From Nitrospirota bacterium (GTDB taxonomy: Bacteria > Nitrospirota > Nitrospiria > SBBL01 > JAADHI01), in contig JAJDBT010000096.1 in assembly GCA_029261215.1 (NCBI GenBank), positions 66,366-102,149 on the forward strand: a DNA stretch of 35,784 bases. The letters are read 5' to 3'. This document shows, piece after piece, positions 12,221-35,784 of this stretch. Under the pieces are notes generated by a model, which did no database searches, was not told the origin of the DNA, and saw nothing but the letters and a program-made list of their open reading frames with translations. The translations under genes were made by a program, and so were the position numbers. Every line of letters begins with the position of its first letter. Within the stretch, counting starts at the first letter, position 1.

Positions 12221-12651
12221 AGTCCCCCTCTTTTATCCAACCTTTCACATGACACAAGCAAAGGCCCTTGCCGAGGATGCGCCGTTTTAATTTACAATCG
12301 GACAGAGCCCCCTGTATGCGCGCCCCTGTATCTTTTGTCCCTTCACCGCCACTCTTCCGTTTTCACCATGACAGCATATGATCCCTTTCCTTAAAAGAGC
12401 GTCAAAAAAAGAATGTCAACAATGAAGCATGATCGTCCTTTGGAGTGAGATCATGTATGAATCCTCTCCTCCTTCATGAGGGACAGCGAGCAGGACATCT
12501 GCTCAATCCATTAAATGCTTATGAAAGCACATCAGCCTGTCAAAACTGATCCATTGTGCCAAGCTAAAAATTTTTATTGACAGCAACGAGCTGAGGATTG
12601 AAGATACGCGAAATTCCTGCGGCGTGCGTACAGTATTGGAGGTGGGTTCAG
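12221..12651. other. intergenic region upstream of potA
   Basis: About 430 bases with no credible gene. Short open frames here encode low-complexity Pro/Ser/Phe-rich peptides. A perfect -35 hexamer TTGACA occurs at 12577-12582, but the region 16-18 bases downstream (around 12599-12606) has no good -10 box, so a potA promoter is only suggested. GGAGGTG at 12638-12644 is the potA ribosome-binding site. A tiny frame starting at ATG 12453 (eight codons) is preceded by GGAG, but nothing else supports it as a leader peptide. Confidence 0.4.
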
Positions 12652-13758
12652 TTGTTAGAAATCAGGAACATTTCACGCCATTTTGATCGTTCCATTGCCT
12701 TGGACAAGGTCAGCCTGACAATTACGGCAGGGGAATTTTTCACACTGCTCGGCCCTTCTGGCTGTGGAAAAACGACGCTGCTACGCATGATTGCCGGTTT
12801 TGACCAGCCTGATGAGGGCGATGTGCTTCTGGACGGCAAAAGCATCATCGCCGTGCCGCCAGAACGGCGGCCGCTGCATACGATCTTCCAAAACTACGCC
12901 TTGTTTCCTCATATGACCGTGGCGGAGAATATCGCCTTCCCTTTACGCATGGTGGGTTGCAGAAAACCAGAGATTGATCGCCGTGTCGCGGAGGCCTTGG
13001 AGAACGTGAGTTTACCCGACAAAGGCAAATCCTACCCGGATGCCCTGTCCGGTGGGCAGAAGCAGCGTATCGCCATTTCCCGTGCCCTGGTGAATCGGCC
13101 GCGCCTCTTGCTGCTGGATGAACCCCTGTCGGCTTTGGATGCCAAATTGCGGGAGCAGATGCAGATGGAACTGATTAAGCTGCAAAAGGAAGTCGGCATT
13201 ACCTTTATCTATGTCACCCACGATCAAGGGGAGGCGCTGGCCCTCTCACACAGGATTGCGGTCATGAACCACGGCGCGATCGTTCAGATTGATGAGCCTT
13301 CGCGTCTCTATGGTTTTCCCAACAGCCGCTTTGTGGCGGACTTTATCGGTCAATGCAATTTGCTGGGCGGCAAGGTAAGGCAGGTACAGGGTGATCGTGC
13401 CCTGGTGGACCTGGATGGCCTGGGTGTGGTGCATACCCTTATTCCGCCCCATGCGGTGATTGAGGTTGGCAAGCCATGCACACTCACCCTGCGGCCGGAA
13501 AAAACGCAAATCTCCTCCGCCCTCCCCGCTCTGCGAGGACCCGTCACGCAGAGTGAGGATGAGGCCCATTTTAAAGGGGTGGTGCATGACATGCTCTACC
13601 TGGGGGATGTCACCGTGTATAAAGTCGAACTGGCACAGGGCCTGTTGGTGGAGGCGCTGCTCGCCAATTCTTCATCGGGCCGGGCCCGTTTTTTTGAAGT
13701 GGGCGATCAGGTTGAAGTGGCTTGGCGCTTCGATGCAGGTCATCTGGTGATGGAGTAG
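12652..13758 (+). CDS. potA: spermidine/putrescine ABC transporter ATP-binding protein
   Basis: The ATPase of a polyamine importer, about 368 residues. Walker A GPSGCGKTT, Q-loop FQNYALFPHM, signature LSGGQKQR, Walker B LLLLDEPLSALD and H-loop YVTHDQGEA are all intact. A C-terminal TOBE-type regulatory domain follows (about 235-368). The conserved protein begins LEIRNISRHF, so I choose TTG 12652, seven bases after GGAGGTG; a TTG at 12598 would add 18 unconserved residues without a ribosome-binding site. First of a four-gene operon. Codon use is visibly richer in G/C third positions than in the flanking housekeeping genes, which hints at transfer. Confidence 0.94.
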   Translation: MLEIRNISRHFDRSIALDKVSLTITAGEFFTLLGPSGCGKTTLLRMIAGFDQPDEGDVLLDGKSIIAVPPERRPLHTIFQNYALFPHMTVAENIAFPLRMVGCRKPEIDRRVAEALENVSLPDKGKSYPDALSGGQKQRIAISRALVNRPRLLLLDEPLSALDAKLREQMQMELIKLQKEVGITFIYVTHDQGEALALSHRIAVMNHGAIVQIDEPSRLYGFPNSRFVADFIGQCNLLGGKVRQVQGDRALVDLDGLGVVHTLIPPHAVIEVGKPCTLTLRPEKTQISSALPALRGPVTQSEDEAHFKGVVHDMLYLGDVTVYKVELAQGLLVEALLANSSSGRARFFEVGDQVEVAWRFDAGHLVME

Positions 13759-13764
13759 TTCCCG

Positions 13765-14679
13765 ATGAAGCCAAACACAGCGAGAAATGTAGGGTCGGGA
13801 GACCGGTGGAAACGCCTGCTCGCCCTGCCTCCGATGGGATATCTGTTGATCTTCTTTGCGATTCCCACGCTCATCATGCTCTTCGCTTCGTTTCGTTATG
13901 CCGGGGAATATGGTGGCCTGGCCCCGTGGTATGGGAATGAAGACGGAAGTCTGAGTATTAATCTGACCCTGGAAAACTGGCAGCGCTTGTTCGAAACGGA
14001 TCTCTATCTCAGGCTGTTTCTCAAATCCATCATGTATGCGCTGCTTGCCACCCTGCTCTGTATTTTACTGGGTTATCCCCTGGCCCTGATGATTGCCCGC
14101 AGCCCGAAGAAACACCGTGACCTGCTGCTGTTGCTGGTAATTCTGCCGTTCTGGAGCAACTTTCTCGTCCGTATCTATGCCTGGATGATTATCTTCAGCC
14201 CCAGCGGTGCCCTGACCCGGATGATGAACGTGCTTCTTGCCACCGTTGGCCTTGCGCCCGTGAGTCTGATGTACAGTTCCACTGCGGTCATTGTCTGTTT
14301 GGTGTATGTCCACCTACCCTTCATGGTGCTGCCGCTCTATGCCAATCTTGAAAAACACAACCCGGCATTGCTTGCTGCCGCCCAGGATTTGGGCGCCAAT
14401 CGCTGGCGGCGGTTCTGGGATATCACCTGGCCGCTGTCCCTTCCGGGAGTCTATGCTGGCGCAATCCTGGTCTTCATCCCGGTGCTGGGAACCTTTGCGA
14501 TTCCCGATCTGCTGGGCGGCACAGACGGCATCATGATCGCCAATGTCATCAAACAACAGTTCGTCGAATCTCGTGACTGGCCATTTGGCAGTGTTCTGTC
14601 GATGGCTCTGACGGCAGCAGCCGTATTGGTGGTCTTGTTAAGTGCGAAAATGGGTACACGGCGGGGGACCTTGAGATGA
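13765..14679 (+). CDS. potB: spermidine/putrescine ABC transporter permease PotB
   Basis: A 304-residue inner-membrane permease with about six helices, starting with YLLIFFAIPTLIMLFAS (about residues 28-44). The BPD_transp_1 ATPase-contact loop EAA-like motif appears as AAAQDLGANRWRRFWDITWPL (about 209-229). VRIYAWMIIF and PFMVLPLYANLEK are typical PotB segments. Start ATG 13765 has GGAG (13752-13755) overlapping the potA stop, nine bases upstream. Its last bases overlap potC by four (ATGA), indicating translational coupling. Confidence 0.94.
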   Translation: MKPNTARNVGSGDRWKRLLALPPMGYLLIFFAIPTLIMLFASFRYAGEYGGLAPWYGNEDGSLSINLTLENWQRLFETDLYLRLFLKSIMYALLATLLCILLGYPLALMIARSPKKHRDLLLLLVILPFWSNFLVRIYAWMIIFSPSGALTRMMNVLLATVGLAPVSLMYSSTAVIVCLVYVHLPFMVLPLYANLEKHNPALLAAAQDLGANRWRRFWDITWPLSLPGVYAGAILVFIPVLGTFAIPDLLGGTDGIMIANVIKQQFVESRDWPFGSVLSMALTAAAVLVVLLSAKMGTRRGTLR

Positions 14680-15446
14680 AACACAAAAACCTGGCCCTTA
14701 TCCTCGCCGCAGGGGCGGTATTCACTTTTCTCTACCTGCCTCTGGTCATCGTCGTGGTCTATTCATTGAACGATTCCAAACTCAATGCGGAGTGGGTCGG
14801 ATTCACCTGGAAGTGGTATGACCAGTTGTTTCACAACCGTGCTTTGCTCACTGCGGCGAGGAATTCACTCATGATCGCGGCCATCAGCGCGGGTGCCGCC
14901 ACGGTGCTGGGCACCCTGGCGGGCATGGGCATGTATCACTACCGCTTAAAGGTCCTTCCGGCTTTGGTGCTGACGCCGATTGCCATGCCCGATATCCTCA
15001 TGGGCGTCAGTCTGCTGCTGTTTTTCATCATGCTCAATATGAGCCTGGGTCTGATCTCTATTGTCCTGGCCCACATCACCTTTTGTATCGGTTTTGTCGC
15101 CGTATCGGTACGGGCCCGCATGTCGGGTATTGACCCTTCCTTGAGCGAGGCGGCCCGTGATTTAGGGGCCTCGCCTTGGCACTGTTTCCAGAAGATCACC
15201 CTCCCCTTGCTTGCGCCGGGCATCCTTGCCGGGGCATTAATGGCCTTTACCCTCTCGATTGATGACTTTGTGATTACCTTCTTTGTCGCGGGGGTCGGCA
15301 GTTCGACCTTGCCCTTGCAGATTTATTCTATGGTCAAGATTGCAGTCACTCCAGAGGTGAACGCCATTTCCACACTGTTGATGGTGCTCACTCTGATCTT
15401 AATCACCCTGACCGCACGGCTTTTCCCCGGAGCCTTGCGCAGTTAA
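14676..15446 (+). CDS. potC: spermidine/putrescine ABC transporter permease PotC
   Basis: A 256-residue second permease subunit with six predicted helices. The N-terminal LPLVIVVVYSLNDSK and the motif TPIAMPDILMGVSLLLFF are PotC-typical. The cytoplasmic coupling loop is SEAARDLGASPWHCFQKITLPLL (about 158-180), and the late segment FTLSIDDFVITFFVAG is a hallmark of this family. It starts within the potB stop (ATGA) and is followed 27 bases later by potD. With PotA and PotB it forms the membrane complex that imports polyamine delivered by PotD. Confidence 0.94.
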   Translation: MKHKNLALILAAGAVFTFLYLPLVIVVVYSLNDSKLNAEWVGFTWKWYDQLFHNRALLTAARNSLMIAAISAGAATVLGTLAGMGMYHYRLKVLPALVLTPIAMPDILMGVSLLLFFIMLNMSLGLISIVLAHITFCIGFVAVSVRARMSGIDPSLSEAARDLGASPWHCFQKITLPLLAPGILAGALMAFTLSIDDFVITFFVAGVGSSTLPLQIYSMVKIAVTPEVNAISTLLMVLTLILITLTARLFPGALRS

Positions 15447-15473
15447 CTTTATTACAGCAGGAGGAATCTATAC

Positions 15474-16553
15474 ATGAAAAGACGATGGGTCTTTGTTGTC
15501 GGTCTCTTTGGTCTATTGATGTCTGCCATCCCCTCAGCGGCCGCCGACGGGGATCGTTTGCATTTGTTCAACTGGAATGACTACATCGCGCAGGAGACCG
15601 TCACAACCTTTGAGCAGCAGTGTCATTGCAAGGTGGTGCAGGACTACTACTCCAGTACAGAAGAGATGATGGCCAAGCTATTGGCGGGCGCCAGCGGCTA
15701 TGACGTCGTAGTGCCCACCCAGAACGCGCTACAAGCCTTGATTAAACAGAACTTCCTGCATCCCCTCGAGAAGAATCTACTCCCGAACTTCAAAAATAGC
15801 GATCCCGGATTCTTGAACCGAAGTTATGATCCGGAAAATGCGTATTCTGTCCCCTACGCCTTTACCACCACGCTGATTGGCTACAATGAACAGCGCTTGG
15901 CAAAACTGGGAATCACTGCCAGGAACTGGTCGCTCATCTTTGATCCCAGGGTGCTTTCAAAACTGCGCGGAAAGGTCACGGTATTGGATGACGCCGAAGA
16001 GGTTTTTTCCGCCGCGCTGAAGTACCTGGGCTACTCCATCAACGACCGCGATGAAAAACACCTCCGTGAGGCCCAGCAGGTCATCCTCACCGCCAAACCC
16101 TACTGGGCTGCCTTCAACTCATCCAGCTACATCAAGGAGCTGGCCGTCGGGAATATCTGGGTGGCACATGGATACTCAAGCGACATGTTACAGGCCCAGG
16201 CCGATGCAAAGGCTGCTGCGCGTGATTTCAAGGTCAATTTCGTACTGCCAACACAGGGTGCGGTCTTGGCACTGGATAACATGGTCATCCCCAAAAGCGC
16301 TAAAAATAAAGCACTTGCGCATCGATTCATCAACTTCATGCTGGAGAGCAAAAACGCCGCCACCTTGACCAACAAAATCGGCGCAGGCAATCCAAATCGC
16401 GCCGCGGCCGAGTTTATTGATGCTAAAATTCGGAAGCAGAATGCCATCTTCCCGGATGCGGCCACCCTAACTAAACTTGAAACCCTGGAGGCCTCGAATG
16501 CCAAACAACGCCGCCTCTTGAACACCCTCTGGACGGAGATCAAAATCAAATAG
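15474..16553 (+). CDS. potD: periplasmic spermidine/putrescine-binding protein
   Basis: A 359-residue solute-binding protein. The signal peptide spans residues 1-24 (hydrophobic VFVVGLFGLLMSAIPSAAA). The mature start LHLFNWNDYIAQETVTTFE matches PotD/PotF. STEEMMAKLLAG, YDVVVPTQNAL and the polyamine-pocket region with VPYAFTTTLIGYN, GYSSDML and NMVIPKSAKNK follow the family order. AGGAGG at 15459-15464 is nine bases before the ATG. It is the last gene of potABCD. No terminator is evident after it. Confidence 0.93.
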   Translation: MKRRWVFVVGLFGLLMSAIPSAAADGDRLHLFNWNDYIAQETVTTFEQQCHCKVVQDYYSSTEEMMAKLLAGASGYDVVVPTQNALQALIKQNFLHPLEKNLLPNFKNSDPGFLNRSYDPENAYSVPYAFTTTLIGYNEQRLAKLGITARNWSLIFDPRVLSKLRGKVTVLDDAEEVFSAALKYLGYSINDRDEKHLREAQQVILTAKPYWAAFNSSSYIKELAVGNIWVAHGYSSDMLQAQADAKAAARDFKVNFVLPTQGAVLALDNMVIPKSAKNKALAHRFINFMLESKNAATLTNKIGAGNPNRAAAEFIDAKIRKQNAIFPDAATLTKLETLEASNAKQRRLLNTLWTEIKIK

Positions 16554-28219: not shown

Positions 28220-28606
28220 TTAGCTCCAATCTCTCATTAGGGTGTCCGCAACAATAAAGTGATCTGCCAACATCCCCGCATATCGTCCCTGATGGTGGTA
28301 GACCCCCTGCACGATCACACGGTTGTTGAGAATATTATAAGGCGGAAAATCACTAAAAACAGTCACAGACTGACCATCTTCACCCAGTTTTGTCTCAACA
28401 AAATTGGATCCCAGGCGGCCACGTTTTGTTTCAGCGGATCGTGCCCAGCCCATAACAGCAACACGCTTGCCATCAAAAGCCTCACTCAATTCCGAGACAT
28501 CGACCAAGACAGGCAATTCTTTTGCGATGATGGTATAGGTCATTAAGAATAGTACAGAAACAGCTGTCAGACAGACGACAGTCAATATTTTTTTTATTTT
28601 ATTCAT
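28220..28606 (-). CDS. small exported protein with OB-fold-like pattern, function unknown
   Basis: A 128-residue protein. The N-terminal 28 residues are a basic tip plus hydrophobic helix (VVCLTAVSVLFLMTYTII), either a signal peptide or an anchor. The rest, VDVSELSEAFDGKRVAVMGWA, NFVETKLGEDGQSVTVFS and NNRVIVQGVYHHQGRYAGMLADHFIVAD, follows the alternating strands of a small OB-fold, as in periplasmic tRNA_anti-like or CcmE-like domains. I cannot name a family. GGAGG eight bases before the ATG supports the start. It is the last gene of the minus-strand copper/iron-protein cluster and has its own candidate promoter and terminator. Confidence 0.7.
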   Translation of the reverse strand: MNKIKKILTVVCLTAVSVLFLMTYTIIAKELPVLVDVSELSEAFDGKRVAVMGWARSAETKRGRLGSNFVETKLGEDGQSVTVFSDFPPYNILNNRVIVQGVYHHQGRYAGMLADHFIVADTLMRDWS

Positions 28607-28629
28607 GATTCTGCCCTCCCTTGACCCTA

Positions 28630-28638
28630 ATTATATCA
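28630..28638 (-). promoter_or_regulatory. extended -10 promoter for the exported OB-fold-like gene
   Basis: On the minus strand the sequence reads TGATATAAT, a perfect -10 hexamer with the extended TGn element, 24 bases before the ATG at 28606. No good -35 box is spaced correctly, which an extended -10 can tolerate. Confidence 0.5.
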
Positions 28639-28801
28639 TTGATTCTTAAAATAAGGCCTCAATCTGATATTTTCAAGCCCTCTTACCCCCATATTGCTTC
28701 ATGCTACAGAAAAATTCACAGAAAAAAGAAGGTTTCGTTTTCGGTTTTTTGAGGAAAGGAAAAAAACTGAGAGGCATTTTAAATCAACGGTAACAGGATA
28801 T

Positions 28802-29365
28802 TCAGAGTACGTTTTTTTCAATGACTTGAAGTTTTTGCGTAACCTGCTTTTTTTCTTCATCGGATAAAGAAGCGTCGCAAATTTTAAAGAGAATCTGATC
28901 TTCCTTACTCATGTGGAGTCTTAGTTGGGCAATCGTTTGGTTTCCCACTGAAGTGACCTCCCTCAAAACCCGGTCGCGGGCAGATCCTGTCAATTTACAC
29001 AATACATTCACACCGCGCTTCCAGTTTAAAAGCGCGGACCTGATCTTGAGATGTTCTTCAAGCATCACCCCAATCGGGCCGTCTTCCTTGCCAATATATT
29101 CTGCCAAAACAGGGAAAAGCGCCTCTTCTTCCATCAAGAAATGAAGCAGCATTCGTTGGGATAACTCATTGACCCAATCTCGTAAACGAGATTGCTCGAC
29201 GAGACATCTTTTTAGGGCGGTACTGCTTGGCAGGCTGTCTAGGTATTGCAATGTGCGCTCAATCGTGGCCAAACCTTGAAGTGTGCGCTGGTGTTCCTGT
29301 TTTAAAATTTCAATAGGATCGGGGTTTATCGCATCGGCATGATCTATTTTTAAATGATGGTTCAT
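28802..29365 (-). CDS. hemerythrin HHE-domain protein
   Basis: About 187 residues, a four-helix bundle expected to bind a di-iron centre. The ligand set appears complete: His25 (KQEHQRT), His75 and Glu79 (LLHFLMEEEALFP), His105 (LEEHLKIR), His141 and Glu145 (LHMSKEDQILF). Such proteins bind or sense O2, NO or iron, or repair iron centres. ATG 29365 has GAGG nine bases upstream; ATGs at 29374 and 29380 overlap that site or lie before it. It follows the CopD-like gene by 35 bases and is probably co-transcribed with it. Confidence 0.88.
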   Translation of the reverse strand: MNHHLKIDHADAINPDPIEILKQEHQRTLQGLATIERTLQYLDSLPSSTALKRCLVEQSRLRDWVNELSQRMLLHFLMEEEALFPVLAEYIGKEDGPIGVMLEEHLKIRSALLNWKRGVNVLCKLTGSARDRVLREVTSVGNQTIAQLRLHMSKEDQILFKICDASLSDEEKKQVTQKLQVIEKNVL

Positions 29366-29400
29366 AAATGCCATCCTCAAAAAAAGCAGTTTTTAGTCCA

Positions 29401-29859
29401 TTAAAACCCACGAACCAGGGAAACGGCAGACAGGACGATCAAAAGACCAACGACAAGGTTAATGCGTGCGATCCACCGACCTGTTTTGAGATAAGTATGC
29501 TTTCTTTCAGGGGACTGCTCACGGCCTCTCGACTTAGGGCCAAAGATAAAATCATGCAACAACGTCAGCAGAACCATCACAAACACCAAAACAAACTTGA
29601 CCTTCAAAACATATCCATACTCACTGATCAGAAGCCCGTTTTGCATGAGCCTCAGGAGCCCCGTCGCAAAGAGCACTGCAAAAGAGATCCAGCCATAAAG
29701 TCTGAATCGCCTACCGACAAAGCGAATCAATACGGCTCTTTGTTCACCCGCCAAACAAAGCCGCAAAGAAGGCACAAGAATGATCGAAAAAAAGAGCATG
29801 CCACCAATCCAAAACATCGCCGCAATGACATGAATCCAGATCACAATTAAAGAAAACAT
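29401..29859 (-). CDS. CopD-like four-helix membrane protein
   Basis: About 152 residues with four predicted membrane helices (roughly 3-25, 45-65, 75-95, 125-148). The first helix contains HVIAAMFWIGGMLFF, the HxxAAxxWIGGxxF motif of CopD-like proteins, which are associated with copper resistance or uptake; related unannotated membrane proteins share it. RFRLYGWISFAVLFATGL fits the second helix region. ATG 29859 follows GGAGG by four bases. It sits 66 bases after the cupredoxin-like gene and just before the hemerythrin gene. The copper role is inferred from family resemblance and neighbours. Confidence 0.75.
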   Translation of the reverse strand: MFSLIVIWIHVIAAMFWIGGMLFFSIILVPSLRLCLAGEQRAVLIRFVGRRFRLYGWISFAVLFATGLLRLMQNGLLISEYGYVLKVKFVLVFVMVLLTLLHDFIFGPKSRGREQSPERKHTYLKTGRWIARINLVVGLLIVLSAVSLVRGF

Positions 29860-29925
29860 CTGCCCTCCATGATTCAATTTTAATATTCATTTGATTGAGT
29901 GGGGCTTTTTTCTCAAGACAGAGAT

Positions 29926-30864
29926 TTAATCCATAATGATGCGTTCATCATCCTCGTGCAGCATGTGGTCTTCAGGCGTTGCGGTATCAATTCGGGTCTG
30001 CTCCTGTGTTTCATAGACCGGTCGTTTCACTTCAGACGCATCTAATTCATAATTCAGATTGCTCACGGTATGGGTTTTTACAGTCACCACTTGCTCATGA
30101 ACACTAAAATGAGGGTGCCAGATACTGACCGTGTAGGTACCAGGTGGAACACCGTCAATGTGATAAGACCCGTCTTTCGCGGTCTTCGCATAGTAGGGAT
30201 TATTCACCACAAAACCCCAGCTCTGCATAAATTCATGCATGCCGCAAATCATCTGCGAAATGCGTTTTCCCTTTTTATAATGCAATACCCCGCCGCGCAC
30301 CTGATCTGAAATAGAAAGCGGCGTGTTTAAAATAATGTTTCCTTTTTCGTTTTGATAGACCTGGATATTATGGACCACAGGGTCCCGATTGATCATATTC
30401 ATGCGTTGATGGTTATGGATAATGGCTACATTGGGATGTTCGTGATGCATCTCTCCCGCTTCATCCACCGAGAACATTTCGTTATCGGCAACTTCACTCG
30501 GGTGAAACATGCAATCCACTGCCACAAAATCGGCCACCGTCGGACGATACGGTTTTCCTTGTTTTATATTTCGGATGGAAACTACGGCTTCCCATAAACC
30601 GTGCGTCTTCCTGTCCACGATAAACTCTTTCAACCTGACATTGCCCTGGCCGTCCGATATTTTTTTGCAAAAGGGGCCAAAGGGAAATTGGATAAGTGAA
30701 AAAACACGGGGTTTTGGGATCTCACCGCCCAAGGTAATTCTCCCGGAAATCGTCCCGCCATTTTCTACATCGACCTCATCGTAGCCGAATGCCAAGGGAT
30801 GTCCAATCACCCCAACAAGGCTCATCATCATGATCATTAGGCTTAATTGATACCTGCTTTTCAC
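29926..30864 (-). CDS. periplasmic cupredoxin-like protein with carboxypeptidase-regulatory-like domain
   Basis: A 312-residue exported protein. The signal peptide covers about residues 1-26 (MIMMMSLVGVIGHPLAFG). A beta-rich domain opens with GGTISGRITLGGEIPKP (36-52). The central cupredoxin-like part has RDPVVHNIQVY (160-170) and QMICGMHEFM (204-213), giving His165, Cys207, His210 and Met213 as a type-1-copper-like set. A CarboxypepD_reg-like repeat then reads KDGSYHIDGVPPGTYTVSIWH (230-250). A His-rich run (140-152) may also bind metal. Start is GTG 30864, nine bases after AGGAGG. It follows the giant oxidase on the same strand, with a terminator between them, so an electron-transfer or copper-delivery partner is plausible but unproven. 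Confidence 0.8.
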   Translation of the reverse strand: MKSRYQLSLMIMMMSLVGVIGHPLAFGYDEVDVENGGTISGRITLGGEIPKPRVFSLIQFPFGPFCKKISDGQGNVRLKEFIVDRKTHGLWEAVVSIRNIKQGKPYRPTVADFVAVDCMFHPSEVADNEMFSVDEAGEMHHEHPNVAIIHNHQRMNMINRDPVVHNIQVYQNEKGNIILNTPLSISDQVRGGVLHYKKGKRISQMICGMHEFMQSWGFVVNNPYYAKTAKDGSYHIDGVPPGTYTVSIWHPHFSVHEQVVTVKTHTVSNLNYELDASEVKRPVYETQEQTRIDTATPEDHMLHEDDERIIMD

Positions 30865-30882
30865 GCCCTCTTTCCTCCTCTT

Positions 30883-30928
30883 GAAAAAAAGTCGGGGCAG
30901 AGGATGATCCCATCCCCCTGCCCCGACT
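30883..30928 (-). terminator. strong intrinsic terminator of the multicopper oxidase gene
   Basis: AGTCGGGGCAG (30890-30900) and CTGCCCCGACT (30918-30928) are a perfect 11-bp inverted repeat with a 17-base loop. On the minus strand the stem is followed directly by a run of seven T (30889-30883, the first also pairing), 22 bases after the oxidase stop codon. This is a textbook Rho-independent terminator and separates the oxidase from the downstream cupredoxin-like gene. Confidence 0.88.
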
Positions 30929-30949
30929 GGATTACAGAGTCACCTCCAT

Positions 30950-33900
30950 TTATTTTTCAATCATGGAAACGGGTCCAGGTGTTTCATTCAATCCTGAAAA
31001 CGCTCCAGGTGCTCCTTTTTGCGGAAGATCCGCCCTTCGGCCACCCATACCACCGCCTGAGTTGAGCGGCAGGATTGTTTGGTTTCCCGCAGGAAGGACC
31101 TTTAAATAGCCCCACTGTCCAGCCGCTGTGTAAGGTAAGCGGTGGTTTTGCCAGAGATAAACACCCGGTAACTGGGTGGGTCCCCCTGCTGCGCGAAGAA
31201 AGACATCCAGATTTTCGGATGAACCAAATTCCTCGGTGTGGAACAGATCCGCACCGGGCATGTTGATCTTAAGCGGCCATTGATGTCCTTCAAGGGCAAA
31301 CATCTGATTCTGCTCGTTGAAGGCGCCAAAGACATGGATCCGAACCGGATCACCCGCATGTGCGAGAATCGTCGGCGTAACAGGATCGGTCGATCCCGCA
31401 ACACAAGGCTGGAACATGGTGCCGAGTTCACAACCATTCTCTTCACGATACATCCAGGGTTCGATCCGGTAGTTTACACCCGTCAAACCCGCAATCTGCT
31501 GAATGTAGGGCATAAACGCGGTTCCGATGATGTTGTCTTCATCCTGAAAATACAGCGAGACGTCACGATAGTCTGAACGTCCTGCCATTTTCGGATTGGT
31601 CCGATCCAGGATGACATCCACGGCCCAGGCATTTTTAAGGGAAACATCTTCACCGGTCATCGGATCGCGATATTTTGCGCCCCGAGGGCCAACGATGATT
31701 CCTCCGAATAAACCGTCCCGGACGGAGTTAATGAAGTTACCCCAATCCCACACAATCGCTGAAAACTCGCCATATTCTGGCGGTGCATAGAAGGTGTAGG
31801 TTCGCGTTTTTCCGGGTGCAACCGTCTGATCCCCAGGATTATTCCCGACGTTTACGCCTTGGGAGTCCTTCGGGTCAAAGGCCAGCATGTCCGCGCTAAA
31901 AGACGCTTTATGCTCCTTCATGTTGTTTCGGAGTTTGACCTTGATACAGTCCCCGGAGTTGACATGCAGCGTCAGCGGATGCGGCATTGCACCTTCCGCG
32001 ACTTTTGCCATATCACCTTCCAGCATGAAGAGCTTGCCTTTTGGATTGGAGACCTGAAGTTTACGATCAAAATCCACCTCGATAAAATCCGGTGCATTCG
32101 GGTTGTACTTCAGAGCCATATCCGTTGCAACCACGTCGAAGCGTTTCACAGGGGCGTCCCCTGGACACACATTTTTCGCCGACTTGGGAATCTCGCCGAA
32201 ACCAGGAAGTTTCTTGAGGTTTTTCGTCTCTTCATCCAGAACCCTGAAAATACCCCAGCTGCCTTCAGCAAGATGAGAAGGACGACCATCAAAATGGAGA
32301 TAGTCTCCTGCCATTTTCTGCGGTCCACCGGCTCGGGTTACGAAATCATATCGTTCCGCGATTCCGATGTGATGCGCATTACGAAGATCCGACTGATCCG
32401 CATAACGCTCCGTCCGAAAAGCATGCCCTGCCAGATGCCAGGTATGCGTTTCATTCATCATCGTATGCAGCATTCTAAAGACAACCGTATCTCCGAGATA
32501 AGCCCGAAGCAAAGGTGTCCCAGGATCTTTTTTATGCGCAAGGCTCGAAAAGACCAGCGATGGATCCGGATTGTTGATCAGACGCTTGGCAATGGATTCC
32601 GCTCTAAAAAAGAATCCGCCCCCTGTCGTATGGGTACCACCATTCAGCATCGGCACGGCAGTAAAATCCAGGTCATAGGGCATCTGGAAAAACAACACCT
32701 GACCCGCATCAATCGCAGCCCGTTTGGTCTGTCCTGGCGGATTGCCTTCCGTCACCACCTGTGCCGTATAAGGCATCGTGTCATGAAGGAACTGCGCCAT
32801 TTCACGGAAGCTGCCGCTATACCCATAACCCACCGGCTCATTCGAGTGAATGTCTGCGATCGGGCCACTCCGGATTTGCTGACCCGTGACGGGATCATGA
32901 TAGGTCGATCCAATCGGCTCAATAATCAGCGCACCGACCGCGCCGTGAGGCCAGGTCGTGCCGCCCAGAGCATGGTCATGCCAGAACACGGTACCGACAT
33001 CGGCATCTGCCCAGAGACGATAGCGCACCCATTCCACAGACACGATTTCGTCTTTTTTGTGGGCATGGCTCAAGGGCTCGCTGAAGGTCAGGGTATCCAC
33101 CCCTGTCGCGGCATCGTGTTCGATCTTCCGAATCCAGCGAACCTCAGAAGTCTCGACCTGATGCATACCGATCATGATGTCGGTATCTTCATGATAAGGC
33201 GTCGCCTTATCACCCATCTTGATCTTGATGCTCATCGAACCCTGACGAACGGGTTCTGTGACCAAGGCATTCATCGGTGCCGGGAGCCCTCGTGTTTCTT
33301 TTTTACCCAGCATGGTAAAGGGCCGAACCGACTGATCATAGGAATAACCCGTGATCACGCCGTCTGAGGCCTGATTGTCAAACTGGATAAAGTGAGGATG
33401 AATGTTGATCTTCGACATCTGGAAGTTGGTCGGATTGTTATCAATCCACTCACTCTTCAAGATGACGTCGATGCAGTCATACACATTTGCCCGATACACC
33501 AGCGGTTTGGCAAGATCCGGGTTTGCCCGGACTTTGGCGACGTCTTCCTGCAGGACGTAGATGAGTCCGTCAGGATCCACCACTTTGCTCTGCTCCCCGA
33601 TGCCTTCGTTCATGGTAATCGGGGTTTGAATAAAGTGGATGGTGTATTGTTTTCGACCGGCACCTTCAGGACACAGGCTCCAGCGTCCCTGCTCACCCGG
33701 ACGGGCGGGCTGAGTCGTTTCTTCACCGGGTGCACCCACACTACCCGGATCGGTCGGGAGAGATCCGTTGTCTTTGTCCATATGGATAGGCTCAAGCCAG
33801 GGGGCTGGCCCATGATGACGGGCAAAGGGCACACGTTTCCCAAAATGGGGTTTGAAGTGCGGCCAGGCCAGTTTCCCTGTTTTCCGTTCAAACAGGATGG

Positions 33901-35784
33901 GTGGCCGTTTCCCAGGCATCGGACTTTTGTATTTCGGATTCGGGAACTGACCCGTGTCTTCTCTCTCTCCCATCGCCTTAAGGCCGTCCCAACTCCAATC
34001 CCAAACAGTCGCGTCATAGGCCAAAATCTGACCTTTTTCGTCAGAGGTATGCCCAGGCTCTCCCGCAGGGGGAAGCATCATTTTAACCCAGTCTTTGATG
34101 GAAATGTCCGGGATGGGCTTCGACCAGTCTGAGGCCTTTTTGGTGATGTTCCATTTTTTGTCAAACCAGTCCATGGTATTGCCAACCAGTTTGTCAGAGG
34201 TGACTGCGGGTTTCATCCGGCCTTTACGGTCGGGCAATTCCTGCAAGGGCGCCATGGCGTCGGTGCTGACAAAGGGATAGTCACCGGACTGGATGGTGTT
34301 GTATACCCGCCAGTAACCCCACATGCCCGCCACATAGTGATGTGCGACGTGACAATGGAAAAGAAAGTCTCCGGCCAACTGCTGACACAAACCGGAACCA
34401 CATTCGGTCTGAAGGTCAAGCACTTCAGACGGCCCGATGACTTCGACGTCCACGCGGTCAGAAATGGTTCGGATCACGGGAAATTTCACGGGGTTGTCCC
34501 AGGCGGCAGTCAAAAGCTCTTCACCTTTGCCATCGGCCTTGGGCTGACGCAGCCAGCGAATGGTGCCGCCGTGTGGATGATGGGAATGAAAGACTTCTCC
34601 ACCACCATGCACCAGACGGAATTTTGCCGGGTCACCCATGTAGGACCGGGGAACGGTGGTTGGCGCATCTCCAAAGGTATAGGAGCTGTAGGCCATGGAT
34701 TCATCTTCAAAATGAAAATATTTTTCCTGCATCGCCAGGTTGTTGATCCCAAACGGCTCTGAACGGAAGTTCATGGCACGTGCGGAAGGACGATAGGCAT
34801 CGGTGTTCGGATCACGCTGCGGAATCATTTCCCCATCCCGGTTCAGAGGACGGAAAGATTCATCTCCCACTTCGTGATAAACCAGTGTAAATTCACGAAA
34901 ATCTTTGGAAACAGGGTCAATCACATCGTCATAGGCAATCATCATCTGCCAGCCACTTTCAGCTTCTTTGCCTGTGATCGGGTCAAGGTATCGCGATCCC
35001 ATCGGCTCCACGATAAATGCACCAATCAAACCCAGACTGCCCGGTTCACGACCTGCGTGGCTATGAAAGGCATGTCCGCCTTCCTGTTCGTCGGGCTGAA
35101 TGTACCATTCAAAAACCTGAGATGCTCCGGACTTGACGTTCGAATCCGGATTCACTGAAGTTGCGGGCTGACCTGTGGCCTGAATCACCATGCTGGAACC
35201 ATGAATATGAAGTCCCGCATCTTCTTCCTCAACTTCGTTGCGGAAAGTGATCACCATGCAGTCACCCTGATTTCCACGAATAATCAAAGGAGCGATCTTG
35301 TCGGTCTGAAGCCCCAAAGATACCGCACCCGGATCAAAACCCGGTTTATCACGGGCTTCACGGTTCATCCGCTCTTCCTCTTTAATCGCAGGAATATCTT
35401 TCGTGATGGCATACATGTAGCCCGGATGAAAATCGAGCCATTGGTTCAAGGTGATCTCCACGTTGATCGCGGTAATATCCAGTTTTTTCACAGGCGCATT
35501 ACTCGGACAGCGGCCTGCATTTGAAACAGTTTCGCTCGCGCCGGTCGGCCCAAGAAACCAGCTTCGATCCATTTGCTGCATTGCGCTCAAGTTGCTGAAC
35601 GGGCCCGTATTTCCTGTGGCTTCGGCATGACCCTTGATATCGCTCATCAAGGAACTCATCGCCCGATCCACCTGGGATGTACGACCGGTATCTCCCTCTT
35701 TCGTCTCTTCTCGCTTGATCTGGGCTTTTAATTTCGCCTTCCAGTCCGCAGAAGCAACCATTTGAGCATCCGTCTTTTCCGAAT
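30950..35784 (-). CDS. giant multi-domain multicopper oxidase, MofA/MnxG/OmpB-like (N-terminus beyond window)
   Basis: At least 1603 residues from ATG 35761, but the frame stays open to the window edge and no signal peptide is seen, so the true start lies outside. Three double-cupredoxin units are recognisable from the repeated GA[FL]I[VI]EP.GS.Y.DP.TG (from 247, 942 and 1352). Copper motifs, numbered from that ATG, are HIH 185-187, HSH 233-235, HSHHPH 392-397, HCH 469-471 with His475 and Met480, HPH 788-790, HDH 928-930, and HTWHLAGH 1106-1113. The third unit has lost nearly all ligands (WDW where HxH is expected). Size and layout resemble the giant bacterial oxidases linked to Mn(II) oxidation (MofA, MnxG) and Geobacter OmpB. 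The metal substrate is inferred, not shown. A strong terminator follows. Confidence 0.88.
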   Translation of the reverse strand, partial: SEKTDAQMVASADWKAKLKAQIKREETKEGDTGRTSQVDRAMSSLMSDIKGHAEATGNTGPFSNLSAMQQMDRSWFLGPTGASETVSNAGRCPSNAPVKKLDITAINVEITLNQWLDFHPGYMYAITKDIPAIKEEERMNREARDKPGFDPGAVSLGLQTDKIAPLIIRGNQGDCMVITFRNEVEEEDAGLHIHGSSMVIQATGQPATSVNPDSNVKSGASQVFEWYIQPDEQEGGHAFHSHAGREPGSLGLIGAFIVEPMGSRYLDPITGKEAESGWQMMIAYDDVIDPVSKDFREFTLVYHEVGDESFRPLNRDGEMIPQRDPNTDAYRPSARAMNFRSEPFGINNLAMQEKYFHFEDESMAYSSYTFGDAPTTVPRSYMGDPAKFRLVHGGGEVFHSHHPHGGTIRWLRQPKADGKGEELLTAAWDNPVKFPVIRTISDRVDVEVIGPSEVLDLQTECGSGLCQQLAGDFLFHCHVAHHYVAGMWGYWRVYNTIQSGDYPFVSTDAMAPLQELPDRKGRMKPAVTSDKLVGNTMDWFDKKWNITKKASDWSKPIPDISIKDWVKMMLPPAGEPGHTSDEKGQILAYDATVWDWSWDGLKAMGEREDTGQFPNPKYKSPMPGKRPPILFERKTGKLAWPHFKPHFGKRVPFARHHGPAPWLEPIHMDKDNGSLPTDPGSVGAPGEETTQPARPGEQGRWSLCPEGAGRKQYTIHFIQTPITMNEGIGEQSKVVDPDGLIYVLQEDVAKVRANPDLAKPLVYRANVYDCIDVILKSEWIDNNPTNFQMSKINIHPHFIQFDNQASDGVITGYSYDQSVRPFTMLGKKETRGLPAPMNALVTEPVRQGSMSIKIKMGDKATPYHEDTDIMIGMHQVETSEVRWIRKIEHDAATGVDTLTFSEPLSHAHKKDEIVSVEWVRYRLWADADVGTVFWHDHALGGTTWPHGAVGALIIEPIGSTYHDPVTGQQIRSGPIADIHSNEPVGYGYSGSFREMAQFLHDTMPYTAQVVTEGNPPGQTKRAAIDAGQVLFFQMPYDLDFTAVPMLNGGTHTTGGGFFFRAESIAKRLINNPDPSLVFSSLAHKKDPGTPLLRAYLGDTVVFRMLHTMMNETHTWHLAGHAFRTERYADQSDLRNAHHIGIAERYDFVTRAGGPQKMAGDYLHFDGRPSHLAEGSWGIFRVLDEETKNLKKLPGFGEIPKSAKNVCPGDAPVKRFDVVATDMALKYNPNAPDFIEVDFDRKLQVSNPKGKLFMLEGDMAKVAEGAMPHPLTLHVNSGDCIKVKLRNNMKEHKASFSADMLAFDPKDSQGVNVGNNPGDQTVAPGKTRTYTFYAPPEYGEFSAIVWDWGNFINSVRDGLFGGIIVGPRGAKYRDPMTGEDVSLKNAWAVDVILDRTNPKMAGRSDYRDVSLYFQDEDNIIGTAFMPYIQQIAGLTGVNYRIEPWMYREENGCELGTMFQPCVAGSTDPVTPTILAHAGDPVRIHVFGAFNEQNQMFALEGHQWPLKINMPGADLFHTEEFGSSENLDVFLRAAGGPTQLPGVYLWQNHRLPYTAAGQWGYLKVLPAGNQTILPLNSGGGMGGRRADLPQKGAPGAFSGLNETPGPVSMIEK

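Follow-up and report, generated by a model that had tools for sequence, protein, structure and literature searches.

The five genes that close the analyzed stretch of DNA (the window, 35,784 nucleotides) center on a giant multicopper oxidase (MCO) of the MnxG type and on an exported cupredoxin (CRD) whose gene accompanies that of the oxidase throughout the class Nitrospiria. The pair is best read as a predicted periplasmic, O2-reducing MnxG-type oxidase with its own blue-copper partner, that is, a metal or electron oxidase with a general aerobic role, an interpretation that we consider about equally likely to be right or wrong. Readable in the sequence itself are the export signal, the copper ligands, the type-1 site of the CRD, the class-wide linkage and the upstream sigma-54 and enhancer-like sites.

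The five consecutive open reading frames at 28220-35784, all on the minus strand, are genuine in the ORF list of the window, as a sequence-only reading of this DNA had claimed. By descending coordinate, their order is MCO, CRD, CopD-like protein, hemerythrin (Hmr) and OB-fold protein (OBF) (Table 1). The window ends with its contig, C121 (102149 bases), and the MCO frame, 1603 aa within the window, is open to the window edge and hence incomplete. The genome containing this contig (3.37 Mb, 97% complete) belongs to Nitrospiria. The same GTDB genus includes a MAG named Candidatus Manganitrophaceae (JAADHI) and the Oslofjord tunnel MAG OFTM336, and Candidatus Manganitrophus sp. GAC4 is a member of the same order; the tunnel from which the OFTM MAGs were obtained has manganese oxides in its biofilms. 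Elsewhere, the window encodes a cytochrome P450 (18019-19344, Pfam E 2e-21) and an ABC transporter operon (12598-16553) with an ATPase and a solute-binding protein, possibly of the polyamine type.

Table 1. Features of the oxidase locus, in window coordinates
Feature	Position	Strand	Evidence
Giant MnxG-type multicopper oxidase (MCO), 5' end missing at contig end	30950..35784	-	ORF, 9bxa match, Cu-oxidase_3
Copper motif C (HxxHxH; H392, H395, H397), MCO domain 2	34571..34588	-	Invariant, 55 relatives
Copper motif D (HCHxxxHxxxxM; H469 to M480), MCO domain 2	34322..34357	-	Invariant, 55 relatives
Copper motif A (HxH; H788, H790), MCO domain 3	33392..33400	-	Invariant; aligned to MnxG HIH
Copper motif B (HxH; H928, H930), MCO domain 3	32972..32980	-	Invariant; aligned to MnxG HDH
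GC-rich hairpin with downstream T-run in the MCO-CRD gap	30884..30928 (about)	-	Sequence and fold
CRD, exported cupredoxin inside a carboxypeptidase-regulatory-like sandwich, 312 aa	29926..30864	-	77-sequence conservation, model, fold matches, Pfam
CopD-like four-helix membrane protein, 158 aa	29401..29877 (probable ATG start 29859)	-	PF05425; recurs near MCO
Hemerythrin-domain protein (Hmr), 192 aa, without evident signal peptide	28802..29380	-	PF01814
Exported or membrane-anchored OB-fold protein (OBF), 128 aa	28220..28606	-	Model, fold searches

The best solved relative of the MCO is MnxG (PDB 9bxa, E 3.8e-82), with five matching stretches that make most of the chain homologous; the kinship with Mn(II)-oxidizing enzymes noticed earlier is thus borne out by homology to a Mn(II) oxidase. 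In profile comparisons, the MCO is far closer to MnxG than to CopA or CueO. Against the NCBIfam model of the manganese-oxidizing MnxG equivalog (NF041487), the MCO scores 118.5 bits and does not reach the curated cutoff of 3100. Among 55 relatives, no variation is seen at H392, H395, H397, H469, C470, H471, H475 and M480 of domain 2 or at H788, H790, H928 and H930 of domain 3. These residues make up the full type-1 and trinuclear set in the permuted order C, D, A, B that is also found in MnxG, the aligned, homologous multidomain chain of the Mnx complex of marine Bacillus, and the trinuclear site would lie between domains 2 and 3. The 9bxa sequence has Ala at position 340, the place of a type-1 His, and presumably represents the H340A mutant. 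The MCO differs from MnxG in being about 400 residues longer, in its linked cupredoxin and in additional HxH pairs of domain 1 (H185/H187 and H233/H235), which are present in most members of the family and missing from some. By homology, the protein is a MnxG-type multicopper oxidase, with this family taken broadly.

Close homologs of the MCO are encoded in Nitrospira and Manganitrophus genomes. As far as the available portions of the two papers go, the MCO very probably belongs to the same family as the giant oxidase of Nitrospina gracilis and Ca. Nitrospira defluvii (PMC3578206) and the 'two novel MCOs' reported for every Manganitrophaceae genome (PMC9040806). The same portions contain no mention of a cupredoxin partner, sigma-54 control, a hairpin or gene conversion. 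The oxidase family is already known, and no description of the module together with its regulation was found in this part of the literature.

The CRD contains a complete type-1 copper site, in agreement with the earlier suggestion of an exported protein resembling type-1 copper proteins. The ligands H165, C207 and H210 are conserved in 77 of 77 sequences and M213 in 99% of them, and they are arranged in a short C-x2-H-x2-M loop, which we take to be of the amicyanin type, with the amicyanin spacing. Sequence searches of the CRD against solved structures gave no significant match. In the predicted model (pLDDT 82), residues 81-194 match plastocyanin and amicyanin at a modest Z of 5-6, and the remainder matches carboxypeptidase-regulatory domains. 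The CRD thus shares with amicyanin and plastocyanin the ligand set H, C, H, M and the fold matches, but differs from them in its low identity (~10-20%) and in the placement of the cupredoxin within a carboxypeptidase-regulatory-like sandwich. It is a candidate periplasmic carrier, or electron donor, for the MCO.

The MCO is present in 57 of 58 relatives. In a phylum-wide sample, 44 genomes have a match, 40 of them in the class Nitrospiria; the remaining four show weak, partial matches. The CRD starts less than 400 nt downstream of 44 distinct MCO genes and is located just upstream of the MCO in four loci (L067, L069, L075 and L099), and about a dozen MCO paralogs have no CRD close by. The complete order MCO-CRD-CopD-Hmr-OBF recurs in two other loci (L035 and L048), and the order without the last gene in L031. 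In Manganitrophus, CopD is upstream and Hmr downstream of the MCO, and OBF homologs lie close to the other MCO locus; some Nitrospira MCOs have a CopD homolog (33-39% identity) within ~5 kb. Within the source order, CopD and Hmr recur at one of two paralogous MCO loci, the second being devoid of CopD. From these counts, linkage is strong for the CRD, moderate for CopD and Hmr, and looser for OBF, so that the recurrent partners on which the sequence-only reading depended do exist in related genomes. Genes for SUMF1/FGE (formylglycine-generating-enzyme-like) proteins also recur near MCOs in Nitrospira-type genomes (L071, L084, L088, L094 and others).

The CopD-like protein scores 47.2 bits with PF05425 (gathering score 32.1, E 3e-12) and, at 45.1 bits, does not reach the cutoff of 195 for the NCBIfam CopD equivalog. 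The hemerythrin domain matches PF01814 (68.7 bits, E 9e-19), with the HHE His and Glu residues invariant across 8 homologs. The label 'OB-fold-like' given previously to the last protein proved correct by modeling and fold searches: only one of five models is confident, and the fold searches return an OB-fold, and sequence searches against solved structures yield no significant match.

The terminator postulated after the oxidase gene corresponds to a real hairpin with a T-run. Across the class, the sequence of this hairpin is altered and its pairing retained: of 44 compared rows, one being a duplicate, 39 show at least 12 stem pairs. The proposal of several transcription units fits poorly, given that the hairpin in the window ends only ~20 nt before the CRD start, too short a distance for an intervening promoter. 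A single operon, with partial termination or transcript processing at the hairpin, is therefore likelier from the geometry than independent transcription units, although a promoter might lie within the MCO coding sequence. A promoter had also been proposed in front of the OBF gene. This candidate was rejected: the 7 promoter-like matches are at the chance level (5.3 +/- 2.3 expected), and relatives show little conservation of the intergenic region.

The N-terminus of the MCO, including the signal peptide, is encoded on a separate contig. The source genome contains a second MCO copy, 92% identical, on contig C84 (L101, G000:C84 1-4835), and the starts of two contigs, C63 and C124, match the first 30 residues of the MCO frame with 100% identity. 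By synteny, the window copy (locus A) continues to C124 (compared with L031 and L026) and the C84 copy (locus B) to C63 (compared with L024 and L025). The two contigs give different signal peptides, each followed by a His-rich stretch; an identity of 141 bases where the contigs begin was set aside as a likely assembler overlap. The Sec-type signal peptide predicts only export across the inner membrane, and the description of the locus as extracellular was accordingly an over-reading. Within one genome, DNA identity between copies A and B is 88-90% and patchy, with 150-base blocks of 95-99% next to others of 75-80%, as seen in the source genome, OFTM244 and OFTM336. Positional counterparts between species are just 77-79% identical, and same-genome copies cluster in the MCO tree. 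Gene conversion between loci A and B is the simplest explanation of this pattern.

Upstream of locus A on C124, a CRP-like gene (identified by Pfam) precedes the MCO; its homologs share a C-x2-C-x8-C motif. The region below this gene (L052, G000:C124, ~1-650) contains a sigma-54 promoter and overlapping TGTC-N10-GACA palindromes, and is assigned to the window copy by synteny rather than by contiguous sequence. At the sequence level, the promoter, TGGCATGTTGTTTGCT, has zero mismatches to TGGCAYG-N4-TTGCW; L031, L040 and L043 show the same perfect match, and Manganitrophus comes close to it. Palindromes of the form TGTCTA-N6-TAGACA are located ~90-110 bases upstream of it. In 39 kb of MCO-upstream DNA, TGTC-N10-GACA occurs 15 times against 1.0 expected, a count that includes related, non-independent genomes. 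In the source genome, the pattern is confined to the MCO promoter and one place without a sigma-54 promoter. A wider regulon is unsupported: a reversed control pattern likewise gives 0-2 matches per genome, so that the case rests on the upstream enrichment. Genes for PAS-domain sigma-54 activators adjoin three MCO loci (L026, L062 and L084), and a 70% identical protein is encoded elsewhere in the source genome (G000:C46:40722-42104). No good match to FNR or CRP boxes was found in the MCO upstream region.

If the MCO and CRD are indeed an O2-reducing oxidase and its blue-copper partner, the type-1 copper of the MCO would take up single electrons, supplied either by a reduced metal (Mn(II), Fe(II) or Cu(I)) or by the cupredoxin in its reduced form, and O2 would be converted to water at the trinuclear site. 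CopD may aid copper loading, Hmr and the CRP-like protein could respond to O2, NO or the redox state, a PAS-type sigma-54 activator would turn the operon on, and the hairpin would keep the MCO transcript more abundant than the downstream one. The role of the MCO would then be metal handling or oxidant removal, common to nitrite and manganese oxidizers, and not the energy-yielding step of manganese oxidation. The dedicated metal-oxidation locus envisaged previously is not supported, the MCO-CRD pair being class-wide and present in genomes with and without NXR-like genes, including Nitrospira with nitrite-oxidoreductase-like genes.

Oxidant defense, as proposed for the Nitrospina and Nitrospira MCO in the available part of PMC3578206, could operate, for example, through Mn(III) that destroys superoxide. 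The near restriction of the MCO to one class of the phylum and the proximity of Hmr and the CRP-like regulator are consistent with such a role, but it leaves the dedicated cupredoxin unexplained and appears rather unlikely. A function in copper homeostasis, with the MCO as a cuprous oxidase, the CRD as a periplasmic copper carrier and CopD in uptake, seems unlikely. Periplasmic copper oxidases of other families act in this capacity, and a CopD-like gene is found here as well as close to some of the Nitrospira MCOs; however, the second locus lacks CopD, no further copper-resistance genes were seen at the locus, and the MCO is much nearer to MnxG than to either CopA or CueO. Still less probable is energy-conserving oxidation of Mn(II) (or Fe(II)), in which electrons would pass from the MCO through the cupredoxin to the respiratory chain instead of O2. 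The source genome belongs to the Manganitrophus order, related genomes come from biofilms with manganese oxides, and the consulted part of PMC9040806 notes that the Manganitrophaceae MCOs would need a periplasmic carrier to act in lithotrophy, a position that the CRD could fill. Against this, the pair occurs throughout the class with no enrichment in manganese oxidizers, the complete trinuclear site favors O2 as the acceptor, and the same source favors Cyc2 and PCC_1. The full version of this scheme, with oxidation of Mn(II) or another metal, a dedicated cupredoxin feeding the respiratory chain, energy conservation and sigma-54 control, is very unlikely. Finally, a tie of the module to nitrite oxidation was rejected because no NXR-like gene of ~1150 aa was found in the source genome, whereas the Nitrospira controls show one.

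The role assigned so far to the giant Nitrospiria MCO is speculative. MnxG-like genes are nearly universal in Nitrospiria and hence unsafe as markers of manganese oxidation in this class. The class-wide cupredoxin partner and the specific promoter signature make the role of the MCO testable.
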